Assembly: GCA_021810735.1 (NCBI GenBank)
Contig: JAJZIF010000041.1
Coordinates: forward strand, 1 to 14,798
Origin: Acidobacteriota bacterium
GTDB lineage: Bacteria; Acidobacteriota; Terriglobia; Terriglobales; Acidobacteriaceae
Length of the DNA: 14,798 nt
Direction: 5' to 3'
The translations under genes and the position numbers were made by a program. The notes beneath the pieces were generated by a model that saw only the letters and a program-made list of their open reading frames with translations, did not search any database and was not told the origin of the DNA. Below, piece after piece: positions 1 to 14,798 of the stretch; the first letter of the stretch is position 1; each line of letters begins with the position of its first letter.

Positions 1-48
1 GGGCGTTGTGCAAGAAGAATCGTATCTCTCTCTACGAAAAAGGACGCA

Positions 49-174
49 TTGAAAAAATACGGACTTGCAAGATTTGTGTTGCCTGTTTTTCTTCTCGCAT
101 CGTTCGTCGCGCCAGGGATCGCTCAATCCAACTTGCAAAACAATATTGCCTTTTCCGGGAAGCGAGTAAGAACA
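49..174 (+). other. In-frame upstream extension with a second signal-peptide-like stretch
   Basis: This stretch reads without a stop into the TonB receptor from a TTG at 49, with AGGA at 41-44 only 4 nt upstream. It encodes a basic start (MKKYGLAR), a hydrophobic core (FVLPVFLLASFVAPG) and an AQS cleavage-like site, then about 16 polar residues, then the second signal peptide starting at 175. It could be a true N-terminal extension, a relic of an older start, or part of a leader. Two consecutive Sec signals in one protein would be unusual. Confidence 0.4.
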
Positions 175-3100
175 ATGACGCGATATTTTTTGGCATTTTT
201 GTGCCTGCTGCTTGCAGTGGCGGCACAAGCCCAGGTGAATTTTGCCAACCTGCACGGAGTCGTGCTCGATCCGCAGCAGAAGCCCATTTCCAACGCAACC
301 GTCGTCCTCACCGGTACGGAAACCGGCGCGACTCGATATGTCGTTACGAATACGGACGGGCTGTATGAAGCGCCGACGGTTGCGTCCGGCACGTACACGG
401 TCTCAGTCGCCGTACCTGGCTTTGCCCCGCTCAGTCGGACGCTGACACTGGAAGTGGGCCAGAACCTCGACCTCGATTTCCATCTTCAGATCGTCACGGT
501 CGCACAGTCCGTCTCCGTCCAAGCGGGTTCGGTGGCGATGGATTCGACGAAGACCAGTGTTGGCGAGGTTGTCGAGCCGAAGAGCATCCAGGATTTACCG
601 ATGAATGGCCGCATGATTCTAGACTTGGTAACCACCGTGCCTGGCGCGCACATGGGCGCGGGCGCGCAAACCGGTGTTGGCAACGCGCGTTACTGGCGCC
701 CCGACCAGGATTCCGCCTTCAGCATCGGCGGAAACCGGCCAAACGCCAACTACTATCTTCTGGATGGTGCGGTGAATACGGACCCGACCTTCTGGACGCA
801 GAACATCAGCCTTTCCCTGGATGCGATCCAGGAGTTCCGAGTCGACGTCTCCAGCTACACAGCGAGCGAGTCCGGGGGGGGCGGCGGTCAGATCAACATC
901 GTCACTCGTTCAGGAACGAAGCAGTTCCACGGCACGCTCTACGACTATGTGCGGAATGGAGTCCTTGACGCCAATACGTTCGAGCAGATGAACAATAATA
1001 AGTATCTGGTGCAGAACCAATTTGGCGGTTCGCTCGGTGGTCCAATCTTCCGCCGCGCCAAGCAGACTTTTTTCTTCATCAATTACGAGGGGTACAGGCA
1101 CGTCCAAACCGACACCATGATCGACACGGTGCCGACGCTGGCGGAAATCCACGGAGATTTCAGCCAGAGCGGGGTGAAGATCTACGACCCATCCAGCGCT
1201 TCCTTCAGCGGTGGCTCGGTGGTGCGCAGCCAGTTTCCAGGCAATAAAATCCCCGCCAACAGGCTCAATTCCGTGCCCGTGCAGTTCATGACGCAATACC
1301 TTCCAAGACCAAACATGGGCATGCCGGGAGTAGACTCCAACAACTATATGGACGTGCGGAACGAGACGCAGTCCTGGAACCAGGGCACCTTCCGAGTGGA
1401 CCACAACATGAAGGGAGGAGACTTGATTTTCGCGCGATATTCCGGGTCGAGCGAGACTGGCTTTTCGCCCATCAACCTGCCGGGTTTTGGCGTTTCGAAT
1501 GACAATCTGTCGCAGCAGGCCGTCGGCTCCTGGACCCACACTTTTACGCCCGCCATACTGAATACCGCCTCCATCGCAGCGTCGCGCCTTTCCATGTTCG
1601 CCCGATCGCAAAACGACAATGTGAATAATATTGTCGGCCAGCTTGGCATACAGGGGGTGGGTTTTGGCGGGCCGGGAGCCTGGGGTGCGCCGTGGTTTGC
1701 CGTGCAAGGCTACTCAGGCTTCGGGGACTCGTTTGCCAATACTCCAGGCCACGAGTGGGACACCACCTATGAAGGCCGGGACACCGTGTATTGGCAACGT
1801 GGCCGTCACGATTTCCAGTTTGGGGGCAGCTATCGGCGTTATTTGTGGCCGATGTGGGGATTCTTCCAGAACCGCGGCTTCTATCAGTTCACCAAGGGAT
1901 ACACATCGCGCACCGCGTCCAATGACGGCACCGGTTCCGCAATGGCCAGCTTTTTACTGGGCCTTCCCGTGGTCCGGCAGCGGCAGGCCGGCATTCCCGC
2001 CATGTCCCTACGCGGTTGGTTTGCCGACGCCTATGTGCAGGACCAGTGGCGCGTCGCGGCGAATACCACCCTCAACTACGGCCTGCGCTATGAATACACC
2101 AGCCCGCTGTGGGACGCCCACTATACCAACAGCAATCTCGACATCTCTTCAGGCACTCCAGTTGCCTTCATCGGAGGCCAGCAGAATTATCCGAAAAGCC
2201 TAACGTACGCCAACGACCTGGATTTCGCTCCCCGCTTTGGCATCGCACACAACTTGCCTCGGCTGGGGATGATTGTGCGTGGCGCGTACGGCATCTTCGA
2301 TACGCCGGTGGACTACACGACGTGGTGCGACGTGCGGCATAACGTGCCGCTGGTGTTTCCAGAGACGAACCAGGGCGGCAACTATACGCCGAATCCCGCC
2401 ATTGCCGGCTTCAATTTTGCTCCGGCGGTGCTGGGAAAGACGGTCGTCAGTTTCGCTTCATTCAGTCTTCATCCGTCACCGCAGTACGTCGAGCAATGGA
2501 ACGCAACGATTGAGAAATCGCTGGGGACCACGACCAGCGTTGAAATCGGATACCTCGGGGCCGACGGATTGCATCTTATGCGGGCGGTCCTGATCAACAA
2601 TGCGTTGCCAGGACCCGGCGCGGTGGAGCCGCGCCGACCCTTCCAGCACATCAGTTTTGCCAAGGGAACGACCATCCCGTCCAATATTGAAGGCACTCCC
2701 ATCGCCATCGCCAGCCTCACCTTTCCGGTGAGCGCCATCTATCGGCTGGAAAACACGGCGCGAAGCTGGTATGACGCTGGTTACATCAATGTTCGCCACC
2801 GCTACAGCAACGGTCTCAGCCTGCTGGCCAACTACACCTTCTCAAAGGAGCTGGATACCGCTCCGGACTTTCGTTCGCCTAACCATGAGGCTGTCATACC
2901 GCAAAACAACAATGATCTCGCTGCCGAAAAAGGACCAGCAGGCGAGGACATGCGGCAGCATTTCGTTTTGAGCGCTGTCTATGAAACTCCGGCCTATATG
3001 CGTTCCCATTGGACGCGTGTTTTGACTCAGAACTGGATGTTCTCTACTGTGTGGCGGGTGATGTCCGGGAACCCATTCACGATCTCGGTTTTTGGCGATA

Positions 3101-3483
3101 CGGCCAATGCCGGCACGATCCTCGGCCAGAATCCCATCCGCGCCAATGCGACAGGACAGCCGATCTTTGGGCACGGTACCAGGAATTCCTCTCACTGGAT
3201 CAACTCCGCTGCGTTTGCAGCGCCGGCTCCTTATACCTTCGGCGACGTTGGGCGCAATTCGGTCTACGGGCCAGGCATGCAGACGATGGATCTTTCCGCA
3301 CAGAGGACAATGCCGATTCACAAGCACATGGCTTTTCTGGTTCGGGGCGATTTCTTTAACGCCTTCAATCATACCAACCTTGGCTCGCCGAACCGCTTTG
3401 TCAATACACCGCAGTTCGGCTCGATCACCATGGCGATGACTCCGGGCCGGGAGATTCAGTTGAGCGGGCGCTTTCAGTTCTGA
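175..3483 (+). CDS. Oar-like TonB-dependent outer-membrane receptor
   Basis: Predicted outer-membrane receptor that would import a ligand using TonB energy. From the ATG at 175 the protein is 1102 aa, usual for Acidobacteriota Oar-like receptors. Residues 1-19 form a signal peptide (MTRYFLAFLCLLLAVAAQA) before QVNF. Residues about 22-105 are a carboxypeptidase-regulatory/CnaB-like beta-sandwich (GVVLDPQQKPISNATVVLTG). A plug follows at about 130-250, with YYLLDGAVNTDP near 193 and QINIVTRSG near 239. The rest is a long beta-barrel ending in RFQF, the terminal aromatic expected of outer-membrane proteins. The frame stays open upstream to a TTG at 49 (1144 aa), preceded by AGGA and encoding a second signal-peptide-like stretch. 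I prefer 175 because it places one normal signal peptide directly before the CnaB-like domain, although its ribosome site is weak. It is first in a co-directional cluster of exported redox proteins. The ligand is unknown; the family assignment is firm. Confidence 0.93.
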   Translation: MTRYFLAFLCLLLAVAAQAQVNFANLHGVVLDPQQKPISNATVVLTGTETGATRYVVTNTDGLYEAPTVASGTYTVSVAVPGFAPLSRTLTLEVGQNLDLDFHLQIVTVAQSVSVQAGSVAMDSTKTSVGEVVEPKSIQDLPMNGRMILDLVTTVPGAHMGAGAQTGVGNARYWRPDQDSAFSIGGNRPNANYYLLDGAVNTDPTFWTQNISLSLDAIQEFRVDVSSYTASESGGGGGQINIVTRSGTKQFHGTLYDYVRNGVLDANTFEQMNNNKYLVQNQFGGSLGGPIFRRAKQTFFFINYEGYRHVQTDTMIDTVPTLAEIHGDFSQSGVKIYDPSSASFSGGSVVRSQFPGNKIPANRLNSVPVQFMTQYLPRPNMGMPGVDSNNYMDVRNETQSWNQGTFRVDHNMKGGDLIFARYSGSSETGFSPINLPGFGVSNDNLSQQAVGSWTHTFTPAILNTASIAASRLSMFARSQNDNVNNIVGQLGIQGVGFGGPGAWGAPWFAVQGYSGFGDSFANTPGHEWDTTYEGRDTVYWQRGRHDFQFGGSYRRYLWPMWGFFQNRGFYQFTKGYTSRTASNDGTGSAMASFLLGLPVVRQRQAGIPAMSLRGWFADAYVQDQWRVAANTTLNYGLRYEYTSPLWDAHYTNSNLDISSGTPVAFIGGQQNYPKSLTYANDLDFAPRFGIAHNLPRLGMIVRGAYGIFDTPVDYTTWCDVRHNVPLVFPETNQGGNYTPNPAIAGFNFAPAVLGKTVVSFASFSLHPSPQYVEQWNATIEKSLGTTTSVEIGYLGADGLHLMRAVLINNALPGPGAVEPRRPFQHISFAKGTTIPSNIEGTPIAIASLTFPVSAIYRLENTARSWYDAGYINVRHRYSNGLSLLANYTFSKELDTAPDFRSPNHEAVIPQNNNDLAAEKGPAGEDMRQHFVLSAVYETPAYMRSHWTRVLTQNWMFSTVWRVMSGNPFTISVFGDTANAGTILGQNPIRANATGQPIFGHGTRNSSHWINSAAFAAPAPYTFGDVGRNSVYGPGMQTMDLSAQRTMPIHKHMAFLVRGDFFNAFNHTNLGSPNRFVNTPQFGSITMAMTPGREIQLSGRFQF

Positions 3484-3492: not shown

Positions 3493-3615
3493 ATGGCCCT
3501 TCATTCGCGGGAACAAAATAAGCGACAGAAAGACACTGGCCGCGTCGGGTGGAATAGCGGAAGAACAGCGATCGCCAGTCCGGGGATGGTTTGGAAAGCG
3601 GAGACTGAAAATTGA
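3493..3615 (+). CDS. Candidate 40-aa small protein, translationally coupled
   Basis: Short reading frame of 40 codons starting ATG (MALHSREQNK...) and ending TGA at 3613-3615. It starts 10 nt after the receptor stop and has GAGGGA 5 nt upstream. Its stop overlaps the TTG start of the cytochrome gene (TTGA, 3612-3615), exactly the arrangement at the next junction (6488-6491). The product is polar and basic in its first half, with no membrane segment, signal peptide or cysteine. I recognise no family. It may be a real small protein or a leader cistron whose translation opens the cytochrome start. It could also be chance, since the span is short and GC-rich. Support is positional only. Confidence 0.4.
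   Translation: MALHSREQNKRQKDTGRVGWNSGRTAIASPGMVWKAETEN
3598..3603 (+). promoter_or_regulatory. Shine-Dalgarno supporting the TTG start at 3612
   Basis: GCGGAG ends 8 nt before the TTG at 3612, a normal spacing. It supports the TTG as the true start of the cytochrome gene. No ATG in that frame falls before the first membrane segment. Confidence 0.5.
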
Positions 3616-6491
3616 GGCGATTGCTCATAGCTTTGTGTGTTGCGCTGGCCGCAAGCGCCGTCTATCTCTATGCGTTTCCCACAGCAACTCTGATTTATGA
3701 AGCAGTCGTTGTGCTGCACATCTTTGCCGGCTGCTTGTTTGTCGTCAGCGTCATCCCTGGAATGGGAAAACTGCTGCGGGGAAGAAGCCGTCTGGAGCAG
3801 GCTGGATGGATCGTGCTCACGCTGGGAGGGATTGCCGGCGCAGTTCTGGTCTTTACCGGCGCGCGCCGCCAGCAATGGTCCATCCTCTTCACCCACGAAA
3901 TGGTCTCGATGCTGGCGGTGGCGATTCTGCTCGCCGTGTGGGCTGGCAACCGAGGCTGGCTGCAGCATGGCAGCGCCAAAGCTCTTCTGCGCGTAACCAC
4001 ATCGTTTGTATTGGTCGCCGCGATTGCCGCTGGGGCCTGGTGGTTGCGCACCGTTCCCTGGCAACGTGACCATGCAATCCACAACCCCAGCATGGCGCCA
4101 GCCGACCAAGCGGACGAAGGTGGAGGCCCGAAGAGTCCTTTCTTCCCCAGCGACGCCGAGACCAACAGCGGCAAAGTTGTGCCCAAGGACTATTTCCTGG
4201 ACTCCGCGACCTGCAAGACCTGCCACGCGGATATTTACAGGCAATGGGAAAGTTCGGCGCATCACTTCTCGTCCTTCAACAATCAATGGTATCGCCAGTC
4301 CATTGTCTACATGCAGCAAGTGGACGGCGTTCAAGCCTCCAAAGTGTGCGCGGGCTGCCACGATGCGGCGCTGTTCTTTCCCGGCAACTTCAATGCGCCA
4401 GTGAAAGATCACCTCTTTATTCCGGCCTCGCAGGCGGGAATGGGTTGCGTGGTCTGCCACTCCATCCGCGTGGAGAAAAGTACCATGGGCAACGCCGATT
4501 TTGTGCTGGAATATCCGCAACTGCAACGGCTGGTGGCGAGCAAAAATCCGATCGTGCATCGACTGATCGATTATCTGATCGAAGAAAATCCCGAACCTCA
4601 CCGGCGCACGTTTCTCAAGCCATTTATGAGGGGCAGCCAGTCCGCGGAATACTGCGGGAATTGCCATAAGGTGCACCTCGACGTGGCCGACAACCACTAT
4701 CGCTGGATTCGCGGCTTCGACGACTATGACAATTGGCAGGCAAGCGGCGTTTCCGGATTTGGAGCAAGGTCGTTCTATTACCCGCCCAAACCGCAGAATT
4801 GCGAGGATTGCCACATGCCGCCGACACCTTCCAATGACGCCGGCAACGTGAACGGGATGGTCCACTCGCATCGCTTCATCGCGGCCAATACGGCGCTTCC
4901 CTTTGAGAACAAGGATCAAGTGCAGCTCAAGGACACCGAGAGCTTTCTGAAGGATAAGAAAGTCCGGGTGGACATCTTCGCCATCTCTCCCGAAACGGCA
5001 ACCAATGACCTGGCCAACAACAAAGTGGCATACACCGCGCCTCAACTGGCGACTACCTTCGCGGTTGGGGAAGAATCGGAGATGAAATCGCCGACCGGCG
5101 CTGCTGGCGGTCCACCAGCGACACCGGTAACTGCGCCGCTCAACCGTGTCCGGGGAGTAGTTCGCGCCGGAGATACGGTGCGCGTCGATGTGGTCGTCCG
5201 TACTCTCGCTGTGGGACATTTCTTCCCCGGCGGAACTGTGGACGCCTTCGATTGCTGGCTGGAACTGAAGGCCACCGACGATGCCGGCCATGTGCTTTTC
5301 TGGAGCGGCATGGTGGAGAACAACGGTCATGGACCGGTCGAGCCGGGAGCGCACTTTTATCGCTCGTGGGCGATCGATGCGCACGGCAATCCGATCGACA
5401 AGCGAAATGCCTGGGCGGCGAGGGCCACCATTTATGCGCACTTGATACCTCCCGGCGCCGCCGATACGGTCCATTTTCGGCTGCAAATTCCCAAAGATGC
5501 GCGCGGCAAAATTCATCTGCAAGCCAAGCTGAATTACCGCAAATTCTCCTGGTTCAACACTCACTTTTCATTCGCCGGAGTGTCTGAAAGTACAGGCCCG
5601 CACGACGTGACGCCTTCCTACGACGACCGGCGCATGGTCTTCACCGGAAATACCAGCGATGTGTCGGGAAAGATCAAAGCCATTCCAGATCCTCCTATCG
5701 TCGTGATGGCCAGCGCAAATGCGGATCTGACCGTATTGCCTGCGAACGCGCCCATCCCTAAATCCCAGGTAGCGCTCAACAAAGCGGACTGGCAGCGCTG
5801 GAACGACTACGGCATCGGGTTGCTGCTGCAGGGAGATCTAAAGGGAGCGGAAGCGGCCTTTGAACGCGTAACGCAAGTGGACCCCACCAACCCCGACGGG
5901 TGGGTCAACATCGGCAGAGAGCGCGTGCTGGTAGGCGATATGACGGGTGCGCGCGTCGTGCTTGACAAGGCATTGCAGCTTTCTCCGCGCTTGGCGCGGA
6001 CCCATTACTTCTATGCACGCGTGCTTCGGCAGACGGGCGACTACGACGGCGCCATCGCACAGCTTCGCCAGGTCCTGGCGCAGTATCCATACGACCGCGT
6101 GGTCCGGAACGATCTAGGCCGCGTTCTATTTCTACAACACAAATATGCAGCGGCGCAGGCTCAGTTCCAACAGGCACTGGCCATCGACCCGGAGGATCTG
6201 GAAGCCAATTACAACCTGATGCTGTGTGAAACCGGAATGGGCAATCCAGGCATGGCACACCAGTATGAGGTGCGTTATCTGCGCTTCAAGGCGGATGAGT
6301 CGTCGCAGGCGTTGACCGGCCCGTATCTGGAGAAACATCCGGACGATAACCGGGAGAGGCAACCCATTCACGAACATATTTCGGTTCCTCTGCCGATTGA
6401 GAATCCCTCCAGCAAGCATGTTGCAACAACCGCGGACGCTCGTTCGAGTCGCGCTTCCGGCTCGTCCGTCCTGCACAGAGGTGGAAATTGA
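3612..6491 (+). CDS. Membrane-anchored pentaheme cytochrome c with C-terminal TPR repeats
   Basis: Predicted inner-membrane electron-transfer protein of 959 aa, facing the periplasm. Residues 1-150 hold about five hydrophobic segments (near 4-21, 27-49, 64-82, 95-111, 124-145). Basic loops after segments 2 and 4 put the N-terminus inside and the long C-terminal part outside. His36 and His95 lie near the outer ends of segments 2 and 4. A cytochrome c554-like region follows with five CxxCH motifs: CKTCH 201, CAGCH 246, CVVCH 279, CGNCH 348, CEDCH 397. Residues about 410-720 look like beta-sandwich, and about 727-880 hold roughly four TPRs. The TTG start is supported by GCGGAG 8 nt upstream. The stop overlaps the next gene's start (TTGA), implying coupling. 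Quinol oxidation or reduction is inference. No catalytic domain other than the hemes is visible, and the partner oxidoreductase is unknown. Confidence 0.88.
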   Translation: MRRLLIALCVALAASAVYLYAFPTATLIYEAVVVLHIFAGCLFVVSVIPGMGKLLRGRSRLEQAGWIVLTLGGIAGAVLVFTGARRQQWSILFTHEMVSMLAVAILLAVWAGNRGWLQHGSAKALLRVTTSFVLVAAIAAGAWWLRTVPWQRDHAIHNPSMAPADQADEGGGPKSPFFPSDAETNSGKVVPKDYFLDSATCKTCHADIYRQWESSAHHFSSFNNQWYRQSIVYMQQVDGVQASKVCAGCHDAALFFPGNFNAPVKDHLFIPASQAGMGCVVCHSIRVEKSTMGNADFVLEYPQLQRLVASKNPIVHRLIDYLIEENPEPHRRTFLKPFMRGSQSAEYCGNCHKVHLDVADNHYRWIRGFDDYDNWQASGVSGFGARSFYYPPKPQNCEDCHMPPTPSNDAGNVNGMVHSHRFIAANTALPFENKDQVQLKDTESFLKDKKVRVDIFAISPETATNDLANNKVAYTAPQLATTFAVGEESEMKSPTGAAGGPPATPVTAPLNRVRGVVRAGDTVRVDVVVRTLAVGHFFPGGTVDAFDCWLELKATDDAGHVLFWSGMVENNGHGPVEPGAHFYRSWAIDAHGNPIDKRNAWAARATIYAHLIPPGAADTVHFRLQIPKDARGKIHLQAKLNYRKFSWFNTHFSFAGVSESTGPHDVTPSYDDRRMVFTGNTSDVSGKIKAIPDPPIVVMASANADLTVLPANAPIPKSQVALNKADWQRWNDYGIGLLLQGDLKGAEAAFERVTQVDPTNPDGWVNIGRERVLVGDMTGARVVLDKALQLSPRLARTHYFYARVLRQTGDYDGAIAQLRQVLAQYPYDRVVRNDLGRVLFLQHKYAAAQAQFQQALAIDPEDLEANYNLMLCETGMGNPGMAHQYEVRYLRFKADESSQALTGPYLEKHPDDNRERQPIHEHISVPLPIENPSSKHVATTADARSSRASGSSVLHRGGN
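6478..6483 (+). promoter_or_regulatory. Shine-Dalgarno supporting the TTG start at 6488
   Basis: GAGGTG lies inside the end of the cytochrome gene. Its GAGG core (6478-6481) is 6 nt from the TTG at 6488. It favours this start over the in-frame ATG at 6521, which has no clear ribosome site. Confidence 0.5.
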
Positions 6492-8353
6492 AGGGTAGAA
6501 AATCTGCTAGTTCCGGCTTGATGGAAGAAACTCAGGGACCGCATCGACGCACATTCCTCAAGCTTTCCGGAGCTGCGCTTGCGGCATCCTTCCTTGGTTC
6601 TCTGCCAAGTTCGATTGCAGACTCAGCAATGGGAGATTTCTCAGGTTCGGAAAGTTCATCCACTGCGACACACACGTTGGCAACATCACCAGGGAACGCT
6701 CCATCCGATTCCGGAGAGCATATTCGCTTTGAAGACATCACCCGCGCCGCCGGTATTCGTTTCGTCCACAACAACGGCGCTTTCGGGAAAAAATATTTGC
6801 CGGAGACGCTGGGGCCGGGCGTCGGCTTTATCGACTATGACAACGATGGCTGGCAGGACATTTTCCTGGTCAATGGGATGAACTGGCCCGGCCACCCAGG
6901 TCGCATCACCACATCCGCTCTGTACCATAACAACCGTGATGGCACATTTACCGATGTTACCCGGAAAGCCGGCCTGGCAGTCCCCATGTACGGCATGGGA
7001 GTCGCGGTCGCGGACTATGACAACGACGGCCATGACGATCTGTTTGTGACCGCATACGGACAAAATCATCTCTTCCACAACAATGGGAACGGCACCTTTA
7101 CCGACGTCACGAAACAAGCCGGGCTATGGGGTATCGATGAATTCAGCACCAGCGCGGCCTGGGTTGATTATGACCGCGATGGCCACCTGGACCTGCTGGT
7201 GGCGAACTATGTTGCGTGGACTCCAGCGACCGACCTGTATTGTTCGATGGATGGCAAGGACAAGGCCTACTGCACTCCGGAGTCCTACAAAGGTGTCTCG
7301 GTGCGGCTCTGGCGCAACCGGGGAGACGGAACCTTTGAGGACGCCACCCGCAAAGCGGGTCTCTACGACGCTACTTCGAAGAGCCTCGGAATCGCCATTC
7401 TCGATGCCAACCAGGATGGATGGCCGGACATTGCCATCAGCAACGATACCGAGCCGAACAAGCTCTACATCAACAACCGCAACGGCACGTTTACAGAAAA
7501 AGGCGTGGTCTCCGGAATCGGCTTCAGCGAGGATGGCGTGGCCCGCGCCGGCATGGGGATCGACGCCGCCGACTACAACCACTCCGGCTATCCCAGCCTG
7601 GCGATTACAAATTTTTCCAACCAGATGATCTCTCTCTACCAGAATCAAAAGAACGGCTTGTTCGTCGATATCGCGCCTCAGTCGGAGGTCGGACGCAAAA
7701 GCCTGTTGACTCTGGGCTTCGGATGCTTCTTCTTCGATTACGATCTCGATGGATGGCTCGACCTCTTCATCGCCGATGGCCACCTGGATCCCACGATCGA
7801 GCGTGTGCAGCAGCAGGTGCACTACGCTGAATCCCCACATCTGTTTCACAACGAGGGCGGCGGCAAGTTTCAGGATGTTGCTGCGGAGGTGGGCAAGTCC
7901 TTCGATGAACGGCGTGTCGGCCGCGGCGCGGCGTATGGAGACATCAACAATGACGGCGCGCTGGACTTAATCATGACCACCAATGACGGGCCGGCAGCGC
8001 TGTTCCGCAATACCGGCGCAACCAACCATTCGTTGCGCCTCAAGCTGTGGGGAACAAAATCCAATCGCAACGGCATCGGGGCGGTGGTGTTTGTGAAATC
8101 CGCGCAGTCAGGGCAGAAATTAACCATGCGCAGCGGATCGAGCTATCTTTCTTCCAGCGAACTGGTACTCACCTTCGGACTCGCCAAGTCCGACAGGGCC
8201 GATCTGGTCGAAATTCACTGGCCCAGCGGCATCACGCAACGACTGACAAATATCAACGCCGGCCAGACGATTACCGTGCGCGAAGACTCTGGAATCGTCC
8301 ATGCAGAACCATTTCAAAAACGGGCCGTTTTAGGACGGGGGACGGGATTGTGA
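6488..8353 (+). CDS. Tat-exported CRTAC1-family FG-GAP/VCBS propeller with ASPIC/UnbV domain
   Basis: Exported protein of 621 aa. The N-terminus has a twin-arginine signal (HRRTFLKLSG, Arg20-Arg21) followed by a hydrophobic stretch, so it should be exported folded. Seven FG-GAP/VCBS repeats carry Ca-binding-type loops of the form DxDxDGxxD, starting near residues 116, 176, 227, 306, 362, 417 and 485. The fifth, DYNHSGYPS, has lost most acidic ligands. A C-terminal ASPIC/UnbV domain spans about 513-600 (NHSLRLKLWG ... IHWPSGITQRL). The family is common but has no established enzymatic activity; a structural, adhesive or partner-binding role is usually supposed. The TTG start overlaps the cytochrome stop and has GAGG upstream; the ATG at 6521 would give a shorter n-region with the Tat motif intact. 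The stop codon lies inside a CRP-type palindrome. Confidence 0.88.
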   Translation: MKGRKSASSGLMEETQGPHRRTFLKLSGAALAASFLGSLPSSIADSAMGDFSGSESSSTATHTLATSPGNAPSDSGEHIRFEDITRAAGIRFVHNNGAFGKKYLPETLGPGVGFIDYDNDGWQDIFLVNGMNWPGHPGRITTSALYHNNRDGTFTDVTRKAGLAVPMYGMGVAVADYDNDGHDDLFVTAYGQNHLFHNNGNGTFTDVTKQAGLWGIDEFSTSAAWVDYDRDGHLDLLVANYVAWTPATDLYCSMDGKDKAYCTPESYKGVSVRLWRNRGDGTFEDATRKAGLYDATSKSLGIAILDANQDGWPDIAISNDTEPNKLYINNRNGTFTEKGVVSGIGFSEDGVARAGMGIDAADYNHSGYPSLAITNFSNQMISLYQNQKNGLFVDIAPQSEVGRKSLLTLGFGCFFFDYDLDGWLDLFIADGHLDPTIERVQQQVHYAESPHLFHNEGGGKFQDVAAEVGKSFDERRVGRGAAYGDINNDGALDLIMTTNDGPAALFRNTGATNHSLRLKLWGTKSNRNGIGAVVFVKSAQSGQKLTMRSGSSYLSSSELVLTFGLAKSDRADLVEIHWPSGITQRLTNINAGQTITVREDSGIVHAEPFQKRAVLGRGTGL

Positions 8354-8364
8354 CCTGCATCACA
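8349..8364. promoter_or_regulatory. CRP-type operator (TGTGA-N6-TCACA)
   Basis: A perfect inverted repeat TGTGACCTGCATCACA matches both half-sites of the E. coli CRP consensus. It overlaps the stop codon (8351-8353) of the preceding gene and precedes the only sizeable gap in the second half of the cluster. Its centre (8356.5) is 41.5 bp upstream of the start predicted from the TACTAT element at 8386. That is class II activator geometry. A CRP/FNR-family regulator is inferred; none is encoded here. Confidence 0.6.
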
Positions 8365-8385
8365 GCCTACGTATAAAGGCTTTCG

Positions 8386-8394
8386 TACTATACT
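8386..8394 (+). promoter_or_regulatory. Putative -10 element of the internal promoter
   Basis: TACTATACT contains two overlapping -10-like hexamers, TACTAT at 8386 and TATACT at 8389. Initiation would fall near 8398 or 8401, leaving a leader of about 60 nt before the ATG at 8463. No good -35 hexamer sits 16-18 bp upstream, as expected for an activator-dependent promoter using the CRP-type site. Confidence 0.45.
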
Positions 8395-8462
8395 CTTCAG
8401 TACCTTCCACAGAAGAGGACACTCCCCAGCGGGTTTCCGCGTCGAGCGCTCAGGTTTTGTGC

Positions 8463-9935
8463 ATGAAGTCATTCTGGAGTGCGTTGGTAGCAGGCTTCTT
8501 CGTGGCATTGTGCACAATGTATGGAGCCTCAGGAGCGACGGAAGCCTCTTTCGCGAGTACTGAATCCGTCCATTCCACATTGCTGCCGGCAATTGCTTTC
8601 ATCGAAGCTCCCGTTGTAATGGCCGGCGATCTGACCCAGCGCTTCCCGCAAGGAAGCCGCCTGGTGCGAATGACGCCCGGGGTGCAGCCTTCCTCTTTGA
8701 TTCCGCTCACGCCGGAATTCTTCGCCGCCGCCGATCCTCAGGTTTCCTTCGATGGGACCCGAATCCTCTTTTCCGCCCAGCAGACCAAGGGCGCCAGTTG
8801 GCAGATTTGGGAGATGGCAGTGGACGGGTCCGGACTGCGCCAGATCACGCATTGCCCGGGCGATTGCCTCAAACCCGCGTACCTGCCGCAAAACCAGATC
8901 GTGTATACGTCCGTCAGAGGCCAGGGTGCTCAGCGCGCGTCGGCGGTGTATGTATGCCAGGAGAATGGAGAAGGCGTTCATCCGATTACGTTCGGACCGG
9001 GAAATTTCCAGATGGAGACGGTTCTCCACAGCGGACGGATACTGGTTTCGGCGGAGTCCCCTCTGCTGGCGGCCAGCAGCCCCCGTCGATCCCGCACTCT
9101 CTTCACGCTGCGACCCGATGGATCAGGCATGGCGCTGCTTCGCGACGAGGCAACCACCAACCAGAACCGCACCGGAGCTGTCGAGCTGGCCGACGGCACC
9201 ATCCTGTTTCTTGAGTCGAAAAAAGCAGCGGCAGACGCCGCGGGCGGCCAACTCGCATGGATCCACCCAGGTACATTGCGCGCGTCCATCCTAACCGGAC
9301 CATCGTCGGTCTATGGATCCGCAGCCCAACTTCAAGCGGCAACCCTGGTCGTGGCGAAGGAGAACTCGGCGAGGCCGTCCAATCGAAATTTCAATCTCTA
9401 TGCGTTCGATCTTGCCGGCAAATCCCTGGGCGATGTGCTCTACCGAAACGCAAAGGCTTCCAGCGTGCAGGCAGTCCCACTGGTGCCGCATGCGCTGCCG
9501 CAAATCTACTGGAGCATTCTCCATCCAACCGCGCAAACCGGCCGCATTCTCTGCCTCGACTCGTATGTTTCAAAAGATGCGCTGAATGGGCGTCTTGCCG
9601 GTCGCATCGCAAAGGTTCGCGTCCTTACGCTCGATCAGCCGGGAAACCTGGAGCGAATCGTGGGCGACGCGCCGGTCGAATCCGACGGATCCTTTTATGC
9701 CACTGTCCCCGCCGACATTCCAATCCGATTTGAGCTGATGGGATCCAAGGGAGAAATCCTACACGCGCAGCGCAGCTGGATATGGGTGCGAAACGGCGAA
9801 GACCGCGGATGCCAGGGATGCCATGACAGTCCCTCATTCGCCCCGGCAAACCACTTTCCGCAGGCGCTGCGGCGCTTCGATACGCCCACTCCGTTGGGCG
9901 GAGCGTTGCAGGCTCAACACCTGATGCACCCATGA
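8463..9935 (+). CDS. HzsA-related (hydrazine synthase alpha-like) propeller with one heme c motif
   Basis: Periplasmic protein of 490 aa resembling the widespread HzsA-related family. A Sec signal peptide covers about 1-24. TolB/WD40-like blades follow (VSFDGTRILFSA, PAYLPQNQIVYTS, LHSGRILVSAE, ELADGTILFLES). The C-terminal half looks like the HZS alpha middle domain, with GRILCLDSYVS, then PVESDGSFYATVPADIPIRF, then WVRNGEDRGCQGCH. That single CxxCH (450-454) should bind one c-type heme. In true hydrazine synthase the equivalent domain carries a catalytic heme, but no HzsB or HzsC partner is visible, so hydrazine chemistry is not implied. The ATG at 8463 has CAGG 8 nt upstream; a TTG two codons earlier is less likely. 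It is the first gene after the CRP-type promoter, and its stop lies 7 nt before the next gene. Confidence 0.82.
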   Translation: MKSFWSALVAGFFVALCTMYGASGATEASFASTESVHSTLLPAIAFIEAPVVMAGDLTQRFPQGSRLVRMTPGVQPSSLIPLTPEFFAAADPQVSFDGTRILFSAQQTKGASWQIWEMAVDGSGLRQITHCPGDCLKPAYLPQNQIVYTSVRGQGAQRASAVYVCQENGEGVHPITFGPGNFQMETVLHSGRILVSAESPLLAASSPRRSRTLFTLRPDGSGMALLRDEATTNQNRTGAVELADGTILFLESKKAAADAAGGQLAWIHPGTLRASILTGPSSVYGSAAQLQAATLVVAKENSARPSNRNFNLYAFDLAGKSLGDVLYRNAKASSVQAVPLVPHALPQIYWSILHPTAQTGRILCLDSYVSKDALNGRLAGRIAKVRVLTLDQPGNLERIVGDAPVESDGSFYATVPADIPIRFELMGSKGEILHAQRSWIWVRNGEDRGCQGCHDSPSFAPANHFPQALRRFDTPTPLGGALQAQHLMHP

Positions 9936-9942
9936 GAACACC

Positions 9943-11670
9943 ATGAGAAATTCCCCGCGCCCGCTCGCACAAAGGATTGCCATAGCAACGCCGCTTGTGT
10001 TGCTGATGGCGGTCTTCGGTCTCTGCGGGCAGACCGCTGGTTTAGCGCCCGCCACTGCGCAATCTCCCCTGCCGCAGTTTGAAGACGTGACCCAGAAGGC
10101 AGGGATCCATTTCCAGGGCTCATTCGGCGAAAAAGACCTGAGTTCAATCCAGGAAGGAGCTGGCACCGGATGCGCCTGGATTGACTACAACAACGACGGA
10201 CTCCTCGATCTTTACGTAGTCAATGGCCGATATATCGCCGACCTTACCGACCACTCCGCGCCCGATGGCATGAACGCCACCAACCACCTGTACCGGAACA
10301 ATGGCGACGGCACCTTCACCGATATCACGGCCCAGGCTGGAGTCTCCGGGAAAGGTTTCGGCGTCGGCGTGACCGCGGGGGATTTCGACAATGATGGAAA
10401 CGAAGACTTGTATATAACCAACTACAATTCCGCAATTCTTTACCACAACAACGGCAATGGAACTTTTACTGACGTTACGGAAAAAGCGGGCGTACAAAAT
10501 CCATTCTTCGGCACTGGCGCAGCTTTTGTCGATTACGACCGCGACGGCAAGCTGGATCTTTTCGTCGGCAATTATCTGAAGTTCGATCCAAATTATCGAC
10601 AGTATTACACCGCGCAACATTATCCCGGTCCGCTCGGCTACGCGCCGGAGACCAACCGGCTGTTTCATAACAACGGAGACGGCGCCTTTACCGATGTATC
10701 GAAGTCCTCCGGGATTGCCAGCCAGCCGGGTCGTGCCATGGGGATCACGGTCGGAGACTACGACAACGACGGATGGCCGGATATCTACATCGCCAACGAT
10801 ACGATGCCAAGCTTTCTCTACCACAACAACCACAACGGGACCTTCACCGATGTCGCTTCCGATTTGTATGTCGCCTACGGACAAAACGGCGAAGCATCCA
10901 CCGCCATGGGTCCCATCTTTGGCGACTATAACAACGACGGATGGCAGGATCTGTTTGTCTCCGACGCCCACTTCCATCGCTTCTACCAGAATCCCGGCAA
11001 AGCGGGAGGCGCGTTTCAGGATGTGACCAATGCCTCCGGGGTGGGAGCGGTCTCGGGCCAGTTTGTCGGCTGGGGGGATGGCTTTTTCGACTTCGATAAC
11101 GATGGATGGAAAGACCTCTTCATCGTGAATGGCGGGATGGTCTGGCTGGTTCCCATGCCCAGTTCCCTGCTGCGCAACAACGGCGATGGAACATTCACCG
11201 ATGTCTCCCTGCACGCCGGAGATTTCTTTCGGGAGCAAATTGTCGGGCGCGGAGCCTGCTTCGCAGACTATGACAACGACGGCTACATCGACGCGTTTGT
11301 AACCACCCTTGGCGGCAAGGGCATTCTGCTGCACAACACGCCGCCGCCGGGAAAGCGAAACCATTGGCTGACCGTCAAACTCGTGGGGACGCGCAGCAAT
11401 CGGGATGGCTACGGCGCGAGTCTGGAGGCGGTGGCTGGATCGCTGCGCCAGTTCGTCCAATCGACTTCGGAAAGCGGCTACCTTTCTCAGAGCGATCCCC
11501 GGCCGCATTTCGGCTTGGGGCCGTACACCGAAGTCGATACGCTGATCATCCACTGGCCCAGCGGGACGGTCCAGACACTGAAGAACATTCGCGCCGACCA
11601 AATCCTGACTGTGACCGAGCCGGAGTCCGCCAGTAGCGCCGGGACAACCGGAGGCAGGAAGACGCCATGA
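9943..11670 (+). CDS. Sec-exported CRTAC1-family VCBS propeller with ASPIC/UnbV domain
   Basis: Second CRTAC1-type protein, 575 aa, paralogous to the one at 6488-8353. The N-terminus has a basic start and a long hydrophobic stretch ending near PATAQ|S, a Sec signal rather than a Tat signal. Seven Ca-binding-type loops begin near residues 81, 147, 197, 272, 328, 383 and 442 (DYNNDGLLD, DFDNDGNED, DYDRDGKLD, DYDNDGWPD, DYNNDGWQD, DFDNDGWKD, DYDNDGYID). All keep their acidic residues, so a seven-bladed propeller is likely. An ASPIC/UnbV domain follows at about 473-565 (NHWLTVKLVG ... IHWPSGTVQTL). It starts 7 nt after the HzsA-like stop with a poor ribosome site, and its stop overlaps the next ATG by 4 nt, so coupling is likely. 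No enzymatic activity is established for the family. Confidence 0.88.
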   Translation: MRNSPRPLAQRIAIATPLVLLMAVFGLCGQTAGLAPATAQSPLPQFEDVTQKAGIHFQGSFGEKDLSSIQEGAGTGCAWIDYNNDGLLDLYVVNGRYIADLTDHSAPDGMNATNHLYRNNGDGTFTDITAQAGVSGKGFGVGVTAGDFDNDGNEDLYITNYNSAILYHNNGNGTFTDVTEKAGVQNPFFGTGAAFVDYDRDGKLDLFVGNYLKFDPNYRQYYTAQHYPGPLGYAPETNRLFHNNGDGAFTDVSKSSGIASQPGRAMGITVGDYDNDGWPDIYIANDTMPSFLYHNNHNGTFTDVASDLYVAYGQNGEASTAMGPIFGDYNNDGWQDLFVSDAHFHRFYQNPGKAGGAFQDVTNASGVGAVSGQFVGWGDGFFDFDNDGWKDLFIVNGGMVWLVPMPSSLLRNNGDGTFTDVSLHAGDFFREQIVGRGACFADYDNDGYIDAFVTTLGGKGILLHNTPPPGKRNHWLTVKLVGTRSNRDGYGASLEAVAGSLRQFVQSTSESGYLSQSDPRPHFGLGPYTEVDTLIIHWPSGTVQTLKNIRADQILTVTEPESASSAGTTGGRKTP

Positions 11671-13649
11671 AGGTCCGTTCCGCGAGTCCGGCCATCCGGG
11701 GCAGACACCTGGGCAAACTGCTTGCAGGCATCGCAGCTTTCGCCCTGGTCGCGGTCATGACGATCCTGGGGCGACCCTCGGTTGCCAGTGCCGCTCCCCA
11801 GACAACCGGCACGGATTCCGGCAGCTACATCCCACGAGCACAGTATCTGAGTCCGGTGGCCATGACGCTTTCCGAGGATGGCCGCTGGCTGTATATCGCC
11901 TGCGAGGACAGCGACCTGGTGCTGGCCGTGGACACCCGCTCGCAGAAGGTCGAGCGGCGCGTTCACGTGGGCAGGATGCCGAGAGGAATCGCGTTGTCTC
12001 CCGACGGAAAAACCCTGTATGTTTCCAATGAAGATAGCAATGATGTCACGGAAATCTATGCGGAGACTTTCCAGGTTCGTCGCACCCTTCCCGCCGGATG
12101 GGGGCCTGTCGGGCTGACTACAGACCGGACTGGAAACGTGCTGTACGTGGCCAACACCCTGGGCGATGACATCTCGCTCGTGGACCTGAAGTCCGGGAGG
12201 GAATTCAAGCGGCTCGACGCTGGGCATTATCCGGAATACGTCACTCTTTCGCGAGACGGTGGCCGCGTCTACGTTACGAATCTGCTGGCTCGCGTCGCGC
12301 CGGTCGATCAGCCGCCGGTGTCGGAGCTGACCGTCATCGATACTGTGCATCAAATTGTCGCTGCGCGCGTCGACGTGCCGGGAGTGATCCAGATGCGGCA
12401 CATCACGGAGCTGCCCGCAACTGCCGGCGGATATCTTCTGGTTCCATTCATGCGGCCCAAGAACCTGAACCCGCTCGTCCAGATTCAACAGGGATGGTAC
12501 CTGACCCATGGCATGGCAGTCATTCGGCCCGCTGCCGCCGCCGATGGACTGAAAAATTATCACGTGACCGAGGTCCTGCTGGACGATATCGACCGCTACT
12601 ATGCGGACGGCTTCGGCGTTGCCGCCACTCCAGATGGCCGCTGGGCGCTGGTGACAGCCTCCGGGGCCAACGTGGTTTCCGTCGTCGATACAACCAGGCT
12701 TCGCCACCTGTTGCTGCGCACCCCGCCTGCACGGCAACAGGAACTGGCGAATCGACTCGATTCCGCCAGTCACTTCGTCGTTCAGCGATTGCCGGCGGGG
12801 CGAAACCCTACCGACGCAGTCACATCGCCGGATGACCGCTTCGCGTACATCGCCAATCGCATGGACGATACGGTCAGCGTTGTGGATATGAGGCGCATGA
12901 AGATTGCGTCGACAATCGATCTGGGCGGTCCGAAGGAAATTTCACGCCAGCGGAGTGGCGAGCGCCTCTTCTTCAACGCCAGCCACTGCTACCAGGGGCA
13001 AATGGCCTGCGCCACCTGCCATCCGCACGAGGGGCTTTCCGATGGCCTTGCCTGGAGCCTGGAAACGCCGCAACTGGGTCGCGATGTGGTGGAAAACCGC
13101 ACCTTGTTCGGCATCGATGGGACTTCCCCGTTCAAGTGGAATGGAAAAAATCCCAACCTGCAGACGCAGGACGGTCCTCGCACCGCGATGTATATTTTCC
13201 GCTCCCAGGGATTCAGCCCAAAGGAAGTCAACGATCTGGTGACGTATATCCACTCGCTCCAACTGCCGCGCAATCCACATCGGGCTTCCAACGGACAACT
13301 GACCGACACTCAGGCGCGTGGACGTGCCATCTTCTTCCGCGACCGGACCACCGACGACCGGCTGATTCCGCCACTGGATCGTTGCTACACCTGTCATTCA
13401 CCGCTGACTCATTACACCTCGCGAGTGCTGATGGACGTGGGGACCGCGACGCCGTATGACACCATCCGCGCCTTCGATGTGCCGCAGTTGGAGGGCGTGA
13501 TAACACGGCCACCGTACCTTCACAACGGAGAAGCGTTGGAACTGGAAGATATCTGGACCATCTTCAATCCGGAAGACAAGCATGGAATCACTTCCGACCT
13601 GAACAAAGCGCAGTTGAACGACCTGATTGAGTTTCTAAAGACACTATGA
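11667..13649 (+). CDS. YVTN beta-propeller fused to di-heme MauG/cytochrome c peroxidase-like domain
   Basis: Periplasmic 660-aa fusion. A Sec signal peptide ends near residue 44 (PSVASA|A). Residues about 50-435 form a YVTN/lactonase-type propeller (PDGKTLYVSNEDSNDV, GNVLYVANTLGDDISLVDL, DDRFAYIANRMDDTVSVVD). The C-terminal third is a di-heme cytochrome of the bacterial cytochrome c peroxidase/MauG/MbnH superfamily. Heme motifs are CATCH (448-452) and CYTCH (573-577), with typical linking sequence (FKWNGKNPNLQ) and a closing FDVPQLEGV ... PPYLHNGEALELEDIW segment. Such enzymes use H2O2 or store high-valent iron to oxidise proteins or small molecules. Whether this one is a peroxidase, a protein-modifying enzyme or an electron carrier cannot be told, because the distal ligands are not identifiable by eye. 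It overlaps both neighbours by ATGA. Confidence 0.87.
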   Translation: MKVRSASPAIRGRHLGKLLAGIAAFALVAVMTILGRPSVASAAPQTTGTDSGSYIPRAQYLSPVAMTLSEDGRWLYIACEDSDLVLAVDTRSQKVERRVHVGRMPRGIALSPDGKTLYVSNEDSNDVTEIYAETFQVRRTLPAGWGPVGLTTDRTGNVLYVANTLGDDISLVDLKSGREFKRLDAGHYPEYVTLSRDGGRVYVTNLLARVAPVDQPPVSELTVIDTVHQIVAARVDVPGVIQMRHITELPATAGGYLLVPFMRPKNLNPLVQIQQGWYLTHGMAVIRPAAAADGLKNYHVTEVLLDDIDRYYADGFGVAATPDGRWALVTASGANVVSVVDTTRLRHLLLRTPPARQQELANRLDSASHFVVQRLPAGRNPTDAVTSPDDRFAYIANRMDDTVSVVDMRRMKIASTIDLGGPKEISRQRSGERLFFNASHCYQGQMACATCHPHEGLSDGLAWSLETPQLGRDVVENRTLFGIDGTSPFKWNGKNPNLQTQDGPRTAMYIFRSQGFSPKEVNDLVTYIHSLQLPRNPHRASNGQLTDTQARGRAIFFRDRTTDDRLIPPLDRCYTCHSPLTHYTSRVLMDVGTATPYDTIRAFDVPQLEGVITRPPYLHNGEALELEDIWTIFNPEDKHGITSDLNKAQLNDLIEFLKTL

Positions 13650-14779
13650 AAACTAGATCGGAGATTTCGATGAAGCGGGCAAGCGCAGCATGCCACGACC
13701 GCAAAATCCTGTGGGCCGTCAGCATCCTCATTCTGGCCACGGGTATGGCGGCGGCGCAACACCCTTCCTACTACACGAAGTGGGTCAATTACACCGTGGC
13801 GAACGGCTTTCCGCCCGGCGAAGTCTATTGCGTCACTGTGGATGGCAATCGTGTGTGGGCAGGAACCGGCCATGGATTGGTGCTGCTGGAAGATGGCCGT
13901 GTACAAAAGGTCTTCACCACGAAAGACGGCTTGTCCGGCATGGCCGTCATGTCGGTGGCCGTGGATAAACTCACTGGAGATGTCTGGATCGGGACCTTTG
14001 GCGGACTCAGCCGCTATTCCGGCGGGCAATTCAAAAACTACACCAACCTGAGCAGCGGTCTGGCGAATGACCTGGTGTATGGGGTTGCCGTTCAGGGGAA
14101 ATACCTCTGGGTGGCCACCACGGCGGGCGTCAACCGTCTGGATACCCATACCGGAAGCTGGTCGATTTTTAACGAATCCAATGCTCCGTTTGAAGAGCCC
14201 TGGGCCTATGGCATATCCGTGGGAGCGGAAAAGATATATTTCGCCGTCTGGGGAGGTGGAGTGCTTTCCTATGACCTGGCAAATCATTATTGGAAGCCGT
14301 ACACCGATCCTGACGGCGAAATGGAACTGGTCCTTTATCGCAATCAGGGGCTCATTCACAACATTGTCAGCAGCGTCTCCTGGAATCCCGACACAAAAAC
14401 GTTCTGGGCCTCCACCTATTTCGGCCTCAGCAGCTATGACGGGCGAAACTGGCATAACTATCTAAAGAAGGACAGCGGCCTGCCTTCGAATTTCATCAAT
14501 GCGGTAAAGTCGCGCGGCAATGAAGTGTGGAGCTGCACGCAGAAGGGACTCAGCGAATTCAACACCGCGACCAACACCTGGGTCACATACCGACCTAATC
14601 TCAAAACCGGACGCGGAGAAATCCTCATTACTCGTCCAGACGGCAGCAAGCACCGGATCGCATCCAGCACCACCCTGGCGCACAACTACATTCTGAATCT
14701 CGACTTTCAAGGGGACGACATTTGGGTAGCCACGGCAAATGGATTGAGCCATGGCATTCGCCAGCCCCACAAGGAGTAA
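13646..14779 (+). CDS. Stand-alone periplasmic Reg_prop-type beta-propeller
   Basis: Exported 377-aa protein made almost wholly of short propeller repeats like the two-component regulator propeller family: NRVWAGTGHGLVLLEDGRVQ, GDVWIGTFGGLSRYSGGQFK, KYLWVATTAGVNRLDTHTGS, TFWASTYFGLSSYDGRNWH, NEVWSCTQKGLSEFNTATNT, DDIWVATANGLSHGI. A signal peptide ends near AAAQ|HPS. The usual Reg_prop proteins are sensor parts of hybrid histidine kinases, but this one ends after the last blade with no membrane segment, kinase or output domain. It overlaps the preceding stop by ATGA. An internal ATG at 13670 has GGAG 6 nt upstream and keeps the signal peptide, so translation may start there. A role as binding partner or scaffold for the neighbouring redox proteins is inference. 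Confidence 0.82.
   Translation: MKTRSEISMKRASAACHDRKILWAVSILILATGMAAAQHPSYYTKWVNYTVANGFPPGEVYCVTVDGNRVWAGTGHGLVLLEDGRVQKVFTTKDGLSGMAVMSVAVDKLTGDVWIGTFGGLSRYSGGQFKNYTNLSSGLANDLVYGVAVQGKYLWVATTAGVNRLDTHTGSWSIFNESNAPFEEPWAYGISVGAEKIYFAVWGGGVLSYDLANHYWKPYTDPDGEMELVLYRNQGLIHNIVSSVSWNPDTKTFWASTYFGLSSYDGRNWHNYLKKDSGLPSNFINAVKSRGNEVWSCTQKGLSEFNTATNTWVTYRPNLKTGRGEILITRPDGSKHRIASSTTLAHNYILNLDFQGDDIWVATANGLSHGIRQPHKE
13660..13663 (+). promoter_or_regulatory. Internal Shine-Dalgarno favouring the start at 13670
   Basis: GGAG lies 6 nt before the in-frame ATG at 13670, while the outer ATG at 13646 has only a weak AAAG upstream and probably relies on coupling. Both starts give a workable signal peptide; they differ by eight residues. 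Confidence 0.4.
14771..14776 (+). promoter_or_regulatory. Shine-Dalgarno of the next gene
   Basis: AAGGAG, the full consensus, overlaps the last codons of the Reg_prop gene and lies 9 nt before the ATG at 14786. It indicates that the cluster continues past the window edge. Confidence 0.6.
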
Positions 14780-14785
14780 TTTTCC

Positions 14786-14798
14786 ATGCGCGAAACAA
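14786..14798 (+). CDS. Start of a further gene, cut by the window end
   Basis: An ATG 6 nt after the preceding stop, with AAGGAG 9 nt upstream, opens a frame reading M-R-E-T before the sequence ends. The product cannot be identified. Spacing and strand suggest the same operon. Confidence 0.55.

Follow-up and report, generated by a model that had tools for sequence, protein, structure and literature searches.

The question raised by the start of contig JAJZIF010000041.1 from an Acidobacteriota bacterium (assembly GCA_021810735.1) is whether a dense run of genes for exported heme proteins and β-propellers represents one redox system, and what such a system would act on. The stretch of 14798 nt analysed, hereafter called the window, carries seven genes, all on the + strand, and the initial annotation had read them as a single extracytoplasmic system. 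The window is composed of two neighbouring units, and its part from position 8349 onward represents the front half of an operon conserved in Acidobacteriota. By sequence and model comparison, homologues of all three subunits (α, β, and γ) of hydrazine synthase (HZS) are encoded together in the window. The claims on homology and on the operon, taken together, are made with very high confidence.

The HzsA-like protein is built of an N-terminal hydrophobic stretch, a TolB-like propeller, and the middle domain of HZS α with one CXXCH motif (CQGCH). It matches the Pfam family HZS_alpha (PF18582) with 65.6 bits (cut-off, 26.6) and chain A of the Kuenenia hydrazine synthase (5c2v_A) with an E-value of 3.6e-22, and scores 95 bits against the NCBIfam model HzsA (NF052339), below its curated cut-off of 800. 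The top match of its AlphaFold model (mean pLDDT 77) is also 5c2v_A (E 4.3e-25, TMq 0.69), and the next different protein after 5C2V is TolB (2.8e-10). The fusion protein matches 5c2v_B over residues 61–406 (3.4e-30) and 5c2v_C in two pieces, 428–558 and 597–660 (2.3e-20). It scores 168 bits against the NCBIfam HzsBC fusion family NF052342, below the curated cut-off of 1250, and 33.9 bits against PF03150 (cut-off, 25.6). Its model (mean pLDDT 73) has 5c2v_B as the top match (E 3.9e-32, TMt 0.91), the di-heme part being poor or of low confidence. The initial annotation had noticed an HzsA-related heme protein, which PF18582, 5c2v_A, and the model bear out as an α homologue, but had left the HZS context incomplete by overlooking the β-γ partner; what it described as a propeller/di-heme (MauG) fusion does contain both parts, but is a homologue of HZS β plus γ over most of its length.

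Anammox HZS (HzsA, HzsB, and HzsC; 5C2V) and the window have in common the homologues of α (in part), β, and γ, the fusion of β with γ as found in Scalindua, and the nature of the products as exported heme c proteins. They differ in gene order, which is reversed in the window (anammox order according to PMC12758564), in the extra propeller partners found here, and in an octaheme HAO/HDH-type gene, which is not always present. They also differ in active-site residues whose roles have been described (PMC12758564; PMC12607021), as counted over 46 homologue rows. At heme αI, the equivalent of Tyr591 (in HZS an iron ligand, four residues past His587, or +4 of the α CXXCH) is absent in 46 of 46, with no Tyr at +1 to +9. 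γ-His144, near heme γI, is replaced by Trp in all 44 readable rows of the 46, and the alignment of the window fusion with 5c2v_C places Trp there as well. γ-Cys165, the third covalent link to heme γI, is Asp in the window fusion. The C-terminal domain carrying heme αII is absent from the HzsA-like protein, which has one CXXCH only and stops about 36 residues later. Because these catalytic residues of HZS are gone, αII is missing, and the scores lie far below the curated cut-offs, the core complex is unlikely to make hydrazine. A true hydrazine synthase serving an unrecognised anammox-like metabolism could draw on the presence of all three subunits, on the Scalindua-type fusion, and on a match to the octaheme HAO/HDH family (PF13447) in 12 of 19 fusion-bearing genomes; it is already largely refuted by the changes at both active sites, and PF13447 is not matched in the other 7 of the 19, including the nearest genome, G001 (85% complete), so that this explanation is held to be extremely improbable. 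The fusion does show the features of MauG and bacterial di-heme CCPs, namely two CXXCH motifs, a Trp between the hemes (its role from PMC12758564), and the PF03150 match; unlike those enzymes, the di-heme domain is joined here to a propeller and linked to an α-like heme protein. The working architecture of HZS, two heme sites with a β-type propeller between them, may be retained. Among the 46 rows, the γ-Cys165 position holds Cys in 23, Asp in 17, Ala in 3, and Gly in 1, and is unreadable or a gap in 2; this split between Cys and Asp is a possible switch in heme chemistry.

Conservation of gene order was followed in loci (numbered with L; genomes with G) gathered by one contig scan with the HzsA-like alignment (59 loci, of which 19, L002–L020, are from close Acidobacteriota), from a phylum sample of 396 genomes (PF18582 in 47; 20 regions retrieved), and from a family sample of 100 genomes (fusion in 14; 12 regions retrieved); the near-identical contig L081 of genome G001 was added. 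With tblastn, 53 stretches were mapped, namely the window plus 52 loci. Both HZS-like genes are present in 45 of them; the other eight (L004, L008, L061, L062, L067, L069, L158, and L163), which did not show the complete pair, were set aside. The loci were picked by their HZS-like genes and are related to one another, and the counts of the other members are unselected; the window and L081 are 99.3% identical in their overlap, and L011 and L162, which agree in length and coordinates, are treated as a single contig. All module counts rest on the tblastn maps, a crude caller of longest open reading frames having been misled by antisense frames in this GC-rich DNA; the cytochrome label in L066, L072, and L075 refers to the TPR part only.

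A CRTAC1 gene is found in 41 of the 45 loci, Reg_prop in 39, one or more binding proteins in 35, a Rid-like gene in 30, DAHP synthase in 24, and a GMC gene in 12. Where more than 2.5 kb follows the fusion gene, Reg_prop is present in 34 of 38 loci and the Rid-like gene in 29 of 38. The conserved unit is hzsA-like/CRTAC1/hzsBC-like/Reg_prop. It is kept in eight Acidobacteriota families (coded f1, f17, f25, f27, f33, f40, f44, and f52 for the genomes contributing loci), so the expectation that no order would hold beyond close relatives fails, and the part of the initial proposal that joined the HzsA-like protein, the second CRTAC1, the fusion, and Reg_prop stands. In some families, the CRTAC1 gene is placed before the hzsA-like gene. 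Minimal loci also occur: L011 (= L162) and L020 have hzsA-like, hzsBC-like, GMC oxidoreductase, and Gluconate_2-dh3 genes without CRTAC1, Reg_prop, or Rid-like. Granulicella sp. L46, which we assume from the RefSeq type of its record to be a cultivable organism, has the module too (L009), with hzsA-like, CRTAC1, hzsBC-like, Reg_prop, Rid-like, DAHP synthase, and two binding-protein genes. Fusion proteins with 6 or 10 CXXCH motifs, that is, with extra hemes as in published clade I, occur in L063, L065, L066, L068, L071, and L073. L063 also carries, at 12085–15278 and divergent from its HZS-like genes, genes whose products resemble XdhA/XdhB-type subunits of molybdenum hydroxylases (scores below cut-offs) and also 4-hydroxybenzoyl-CoA reductase β, and relatives of these are found in L061 of the same family.

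The operon extends beyond the window. The contig of G001 is 99.3% identical to window positions 7870–14798 and continues past the window end with genes for a Rid-like protein (191 aa), two binding proteins, and a GMC oxidoreductase, all overlapping or nearly so. No hydrophobic stretch was found in the Rid-like protein of G001, and both binding proteins have N-terminal hydrophobic stretches. The family names Peripla_BP_6 and GMC_oxred come from the homologues in L016; in G001 itself, NCBIfam gave a sub-threshold match to NF011933 for the first binding protein and nothing for the second. That the run contains no cytoplasmic enzyme, as first described, is true within the window but not as a trait of the operon: the window stops 19 nt past the Reg_prop gene, its edge cuts the operon, and a cytoplasmic-type protein is encoded next in the 99.3% identical contig. 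In many relatives, a DAHP synthase gene follows the Rid-like gene or precedes the hzsA-like gene. Of the 20 genomes that encode the fusion, 13 also have a Rid-like gene (E ≤ 1e-25), compared with 9 of the 376 that lack the fusion. Among 16 stretches retrieved, the Rid-like gene lies beside a DAHP synthase gene in five, L085, L089, L090, and L096 without the fusion and L086 with an HzsA-like match nearby. A 2OG-Fe(II) oxygenase gene (PF13640) immediately precedes other Rid-like copies (L082:8371–8910, L083, L084), found in genomes of the same family; two of these genomes (G008 and G322) showed no fusion at E ≤ 1e-40. In L089 (4738–7239) and L090 (9674–12217), a protein with a TolB propeller, TPR, and one CXXCH is encoded after the pair of Rid-like and DAHP synthase genes, a further association of heme and propeller.

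The Rid-like profile matches RidA-type proteins best (3.5e-15) and then chains of chorismatase type, 5ag3 (3e-9), FkbO (4bps; 2.4e-8), and 5a3k (9e-8). Chains 5ag3 and 5a3k are Hyg5; their records name a putative pteridine-dependent dioxygenase. A 66-column profile of the N-terminal part of the Rid-like family gave FkbO (0.0034) and 5ag3/5a3k (0.13, 0.14) and no RidA; a single-sequence search with 65 Rid-like residues returned nothing relevant, only profiles having matched. The Arg essential in RidA (PAR motif) is Ser in the Rid-like protein, the motif reading PAS in L081 and in the 36 rows printed. A plain RidA deaminase was rejected on this ground, although about 10% of RidA proteins carry Ser at this position (PMC4433059). 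A proven chorismatase was rejected as well, since TIGR04444 is matched with 26.7 of the 325 bits required and at model positions 182–309 of 311 only, with one domain instead of two. The protein thus shares with RidA the family match and with FkbO/Hyg5-type chains the best N-terminal profile matches, and differs from them in its single domain and in the Ser replacing the essential Arg.

The DAHP synthases of the operons in L009 and L070 score 352 and 406 bits against NF006421, above its cut-off of 335; the other operon copies were identified by PF00793 (16 genomes) or by similarity. Nine of the 16 genomes searched have an operon copy, and these nine encode 3–5 DAHP synthases each; G001, G381, and G157 have one each, outside the operon. 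No DAHP synthase gene was found in the eight cytochrome comparison loci. For a tree, 53 DAHP synthase rows were collected and 51 used, the duplicates L109 and L125 being dropped; L104, L107, and L114–L118 were tagged as not operon-linked, their propeller matches being weak (50–83 bits), and L086 was kept as operon-linked with its 77-bit HzsA-like match at the contig edge. The operon-linked copies form two clusters apart from the others in this tree. Support is good for 24 of its 48 inner branches, and long branches were flagged by the tree program. The operon label needs four changes, at least three of them forced by well-supported branches, which suggests that the operon gained DAHP synthase several times independently; a single gain with two losses may equally account for these three. 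In L107 and L114–L118, other DAHP synthase copies are followed by proteins weakly similar to the fusion (65–83 bits).

A CRP-type site marks the head of the HZS-like operon. The perfect palindrome TGTGA-N6-TCACA is the sole match in the window with one mismatch or none. Taken alone it carries little weight: when the window was shuffled 200 times, 47 of the shuffles contained a match with at most one mismatch. Such a match is, however, present at 12 of 38 operon heads (five perfect), compared with 38 of 2280 windows of 430 nt drawn at random from these loci and with 0 of 11 cytochrome-unit heads. A scan of positions 8200–8700 for sigma-70 promoters and terminators found nothing. A gene of the Crp family lies directly upstream of the hzsA-like gene in L007 (8864–9688), with relatives in L008, L012, and L015. 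In Desulfovibrio, the HcpR motif wTGTGAnnnnnnTCACAw (PMC1274295) has an identical core; the palindrome is also the ordinary CRP consensus. The predicted site makes control of the operon by a CRP-family regulator probable. In L010 (3568–3629), three perfect palindromes of this type stand in tandem, 23 nt apart, ahead of the hzsA-like gene.

Part of this arrangement has been published. HZS-like proteins were sorted into clades I–IV with a CRTAC1 gene between the α-like and β-γ-like genes and with the same residue losses, and ABC substrate-binding genes were reported for clade III (PMC12758564; Hagglund et al. 2025, published December 2025). The window agrees with that description in the order α-like/CRTAC1/β-γ, in the short α without αII as in clades II and III, and in the Trp at γ-144; of the traits given there for clade II, it shows the gene order, the short α, and the lack of extra β-γ hemes. 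In the text of PMC12758564 available to us, no mention was found of the Reg_prop, Rid-like, DAHP synthase, or GMC members or of the CRP-type site, and its main text has no words beginning with chorism- and none of DAHP, Reg_prop, two-component regulator, or quinone. Genomes of Phycisphaerae and KSB1 assembled from metagenomes have an hzsA-like gene directly upstream of a fused hzsBC-like gene, for which a wider enzyme family with other substrates was proposed (PMC10732223); these belong to other phyla, and no linkage to CRTAC1, Reg_prop, or DAHP synthase was found in what we had of that article. A literature search by titles and the beginnings of abstracts found no link of HZS-like proteins to Reg_prop, Rid-like, or DAHP synthase, which is weak evidence of absence. 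HZS homologues flanking CRTAC1 are thus already known, and the extended operon with Reg_prop and chorismate-side genes appears, on that weak evidence, to be new. A de novo origin of HZS has been proposed because homologues were lacking (PMC12758564). Partner genes in one conserved operon hint at the substrate and the associated proteins of its relatives; the context makes the job of the HZS-like family testable, and CRTAC1 and Reg_prop are candidates to be sought in the ancestral complex.

We propose that the core genes encode an extracytoplasmic HZS-like heme complex of the α-like protein and the β-γ fusion, of which CRTAC1 and Reg_prop would be two accessory propeller proteins. The γ-type di-heme would carry out an oxidation of peroxidase/MauG type with the inter-heme Trp as relay, and the α-type heme, docked on this di-heme in the manner of HZS, would provide another redox site. 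A small organic compound, derived from shikimate/chorismate or otherwise, may serve as substrate or redox partner; a dedicated DAHP synthase would raise its supply, the Rid-like protein would handle it, and the binding proteins would retain it in the periplasm. The mechanism as a whole is put forward tentatively, its likelihood falling a little short of one half; electron transfer or oxidation, the role first suggested for the system, is a fair guess. Several findings weigh against the proposed mechanism. The di-heme part of the fusion model is of low confidence. The Rid-like gene lies away from the fusion in G157 and G177 and on other contigs in G105 and G165, and its product is far under the chorismatase cut-off (27 of 325 bits) with a single domain rather than two. 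In 21 of the 45 loci, that of the near-identical G001 among them, no DAHP synthase gene is present, some of these loci being truncated at a contig end; an aromatic product can therefore not be generalised to all members. The CRP-type site was not found, there being two or more mismatches, at 26 of 38 operon heads, and the minimal loci L011 (= L162) and L020 fit sugar oxidation better.

Indeed, the GMC protein and a Tat-borne Gluconate_2-dh3 subunit could be the catalysts of a periplasmic sugar or alcohol oxidation, the HZS-like heme proteins only passing electrons to the respiratory chain or to peroxide. In line with this, 12 of 45 loci have the GMC gene, as does the near-identical contig of G001; a Gluconate_2-dh3 gene comes after it in L003, L011, L016, L018, L019, L020, and L162, the minimal loci retain just these and the HZS-like genes, and a GH30 gene lies upstream in L002. 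However, 33 of the 45 loci have no GMC gene in reach (some being cut short), and the linkage to Rid-like and DAHP synthase genes is left unexplained; we consider sugar oxidation unlikely, though the best placed of the alternatives. Defence against nitrosative or peroxide stress is somewhat less probable still. The complex would then reduce NO, hydroxylamine, or H2O2 under an HcpR-like CRP-family switch, as the identity of the palindrome with the HcpR motif core (PMC1274295), the Crp-family gene of L007 with the relatives of this gene in L008, L012, and L015, and the MauG/CCP-like residues would allow; the same motif is, however, the ordinary CRP consensus, and binding proteins and DAHP synthase do not fit detoxification. 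A more specific form of the proposed oxidation of an organic compound is given the same low likelihood: the HZS-like, hydrazine-free heme complex would be the exported half of a dedicated aromatic redox-mediator or cofactor system, in which a pathway-specific DAHP synthase and a new single-domain chorismatase-like Rid enzyme make a chorismate-derived phenolic or quinone in the cytoplasm, the binding proteins hold it outside, and the di-heme complex and GMC oxidise and reduce it. If this is true, anammox HZS would descend from a phenol- or quinone-oxidising complex and not from a nitrogen enzyme.

The remaining alternative is the single system of the initial annotation, in which a transmembrane pentaheme cytochrome as quinone link, both CRTAC1 proteins, the HZS-like proteins, Reg_prop, and the Oar receptor work together. 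It is favoured by three stretches (the window, L153, L154) where the cytochrome and its CRTAC1 adjoin the module in differing arrangements, and by L004, which shows only the CRTAC1 of the pair, upstream; and the two histidines in transmembrane helices, His36 and His95, suit a quinone or heme b site, being invariant, like all five CXXCH motifs, in 23 of 23 rows. However, the cytochrome is found in 47 of 100 family genomes versus 14 for the fusion, and the association of the two is not significant (9 of 14 versus 38 of 86, p = 0.25); in G395 they are on separate contigs, and in G474 about 55 kb lies between them. The cytochrome adjoins a CRTAC1 gene of its own in all eight loci mapped, a commoner pair, and the operon head with the CRP-type site lies between both units. 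The Oar receptor precedes the cytochrome in L145 and L152 as well; away from the window, its sole counterpart near HZS-like genes is a match of 25% identity in L008, on the opposite strand. The cytochrome, the first CRTAC1, and Oar were on these grounds rejected as core members, and the single system is judged improbable, on a par with stress defence. A loose link of the cytochrome to the module is possible, the neighbourhood being in our opinion more than chance.

The features of the window are listed below. The gaps between successive genes are 128, −4, 109, 7, −4, and −4 nt, so that the run, on one strand as first described, is not gapless; it is two coupled blocks separated by 109 nt. One transcription unit for the whole run was rejected on account of this gap and its CRP-type site. 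The inventory of the initial annotation is otherwise borne out: CXXCH motifs number five in the cytochrome, one in the HzsA-like protein, and two in the fusion, giving eight heme c sites, and the five β-propellers are the two FG-GAP/UnbV_ASPIC proteins, the TolB-like part of the HzsA-like protein, the YVTN part of the fusion, and Reg_prop. Both CRTAC1 proteins match both Pfam families above cut-off and are classed as CRTAC1-type by this. All products are predicted to be exported or membrane-anchored by family match or by a simple hydrophobicity scan, which gave five helices in the cytochrome and one N-terminal stretch each in the second CRTAC1, the HzsA-like protein, the fusion, and Reg_prop; the TAT_signal match of the first CRTAC1 (18.6 bits) is below the cut-off of 22.7. 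No kinase domain was found in the Reg_prop protein of the window.

Features of the 14798-nt window, with the families and structures matched
Feature	Position	Strand	Matches and remarks
Oar-type TonB-dependent receptor	1..3483	+	PF25183, PF13620; truncated at window start; neighbour
5-TM (transmembrane) pentaheme cytochrome (C554-like) with TPR	3612..6491	+	PF13435 and TPR families; TTG start as listed; neighbouring unit, not core
Tat-type CRTAC1, partner of the cytochrome	6488..8353	+	PF13517, PF07593 above cut-off; neighbouring unit, not core
CRP-type palindrome TGTGA-N6-TCACA	8349..8364	.	Head of HZS-like operon; overlaps stop of upstream CRTAC1 gene
HzsA-like protein (HZS α homologue)	8463..9935	+	PF18582, NF052339, 5c2v_A
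Second CRTAC1-type protein (FG-GAP/UnbV_ASPIC)	9943..11670	+	PF13517 183 bits, PF07593 72 bits, both above cut-off; between both HZS-like genes
HzsBC-like fusion: 7-bladed YVTN propeller (HZS β) and di-heme MauG/CCP-like domain (HZS γ)	11667..13649	+	NF052342, 5c2v_B, 5c2v_C
Reg_prop propeller, exported	13646..14779	+	PF07494 32.9 bits, cut-off 20.4; fourth conserved member

A TPR-plus-CRTAC1 protein or pair recurs by the cytochrome/CRTAC1 pair and near the HZS-like module, in L149, L150, L151, L009, L072, and L075.

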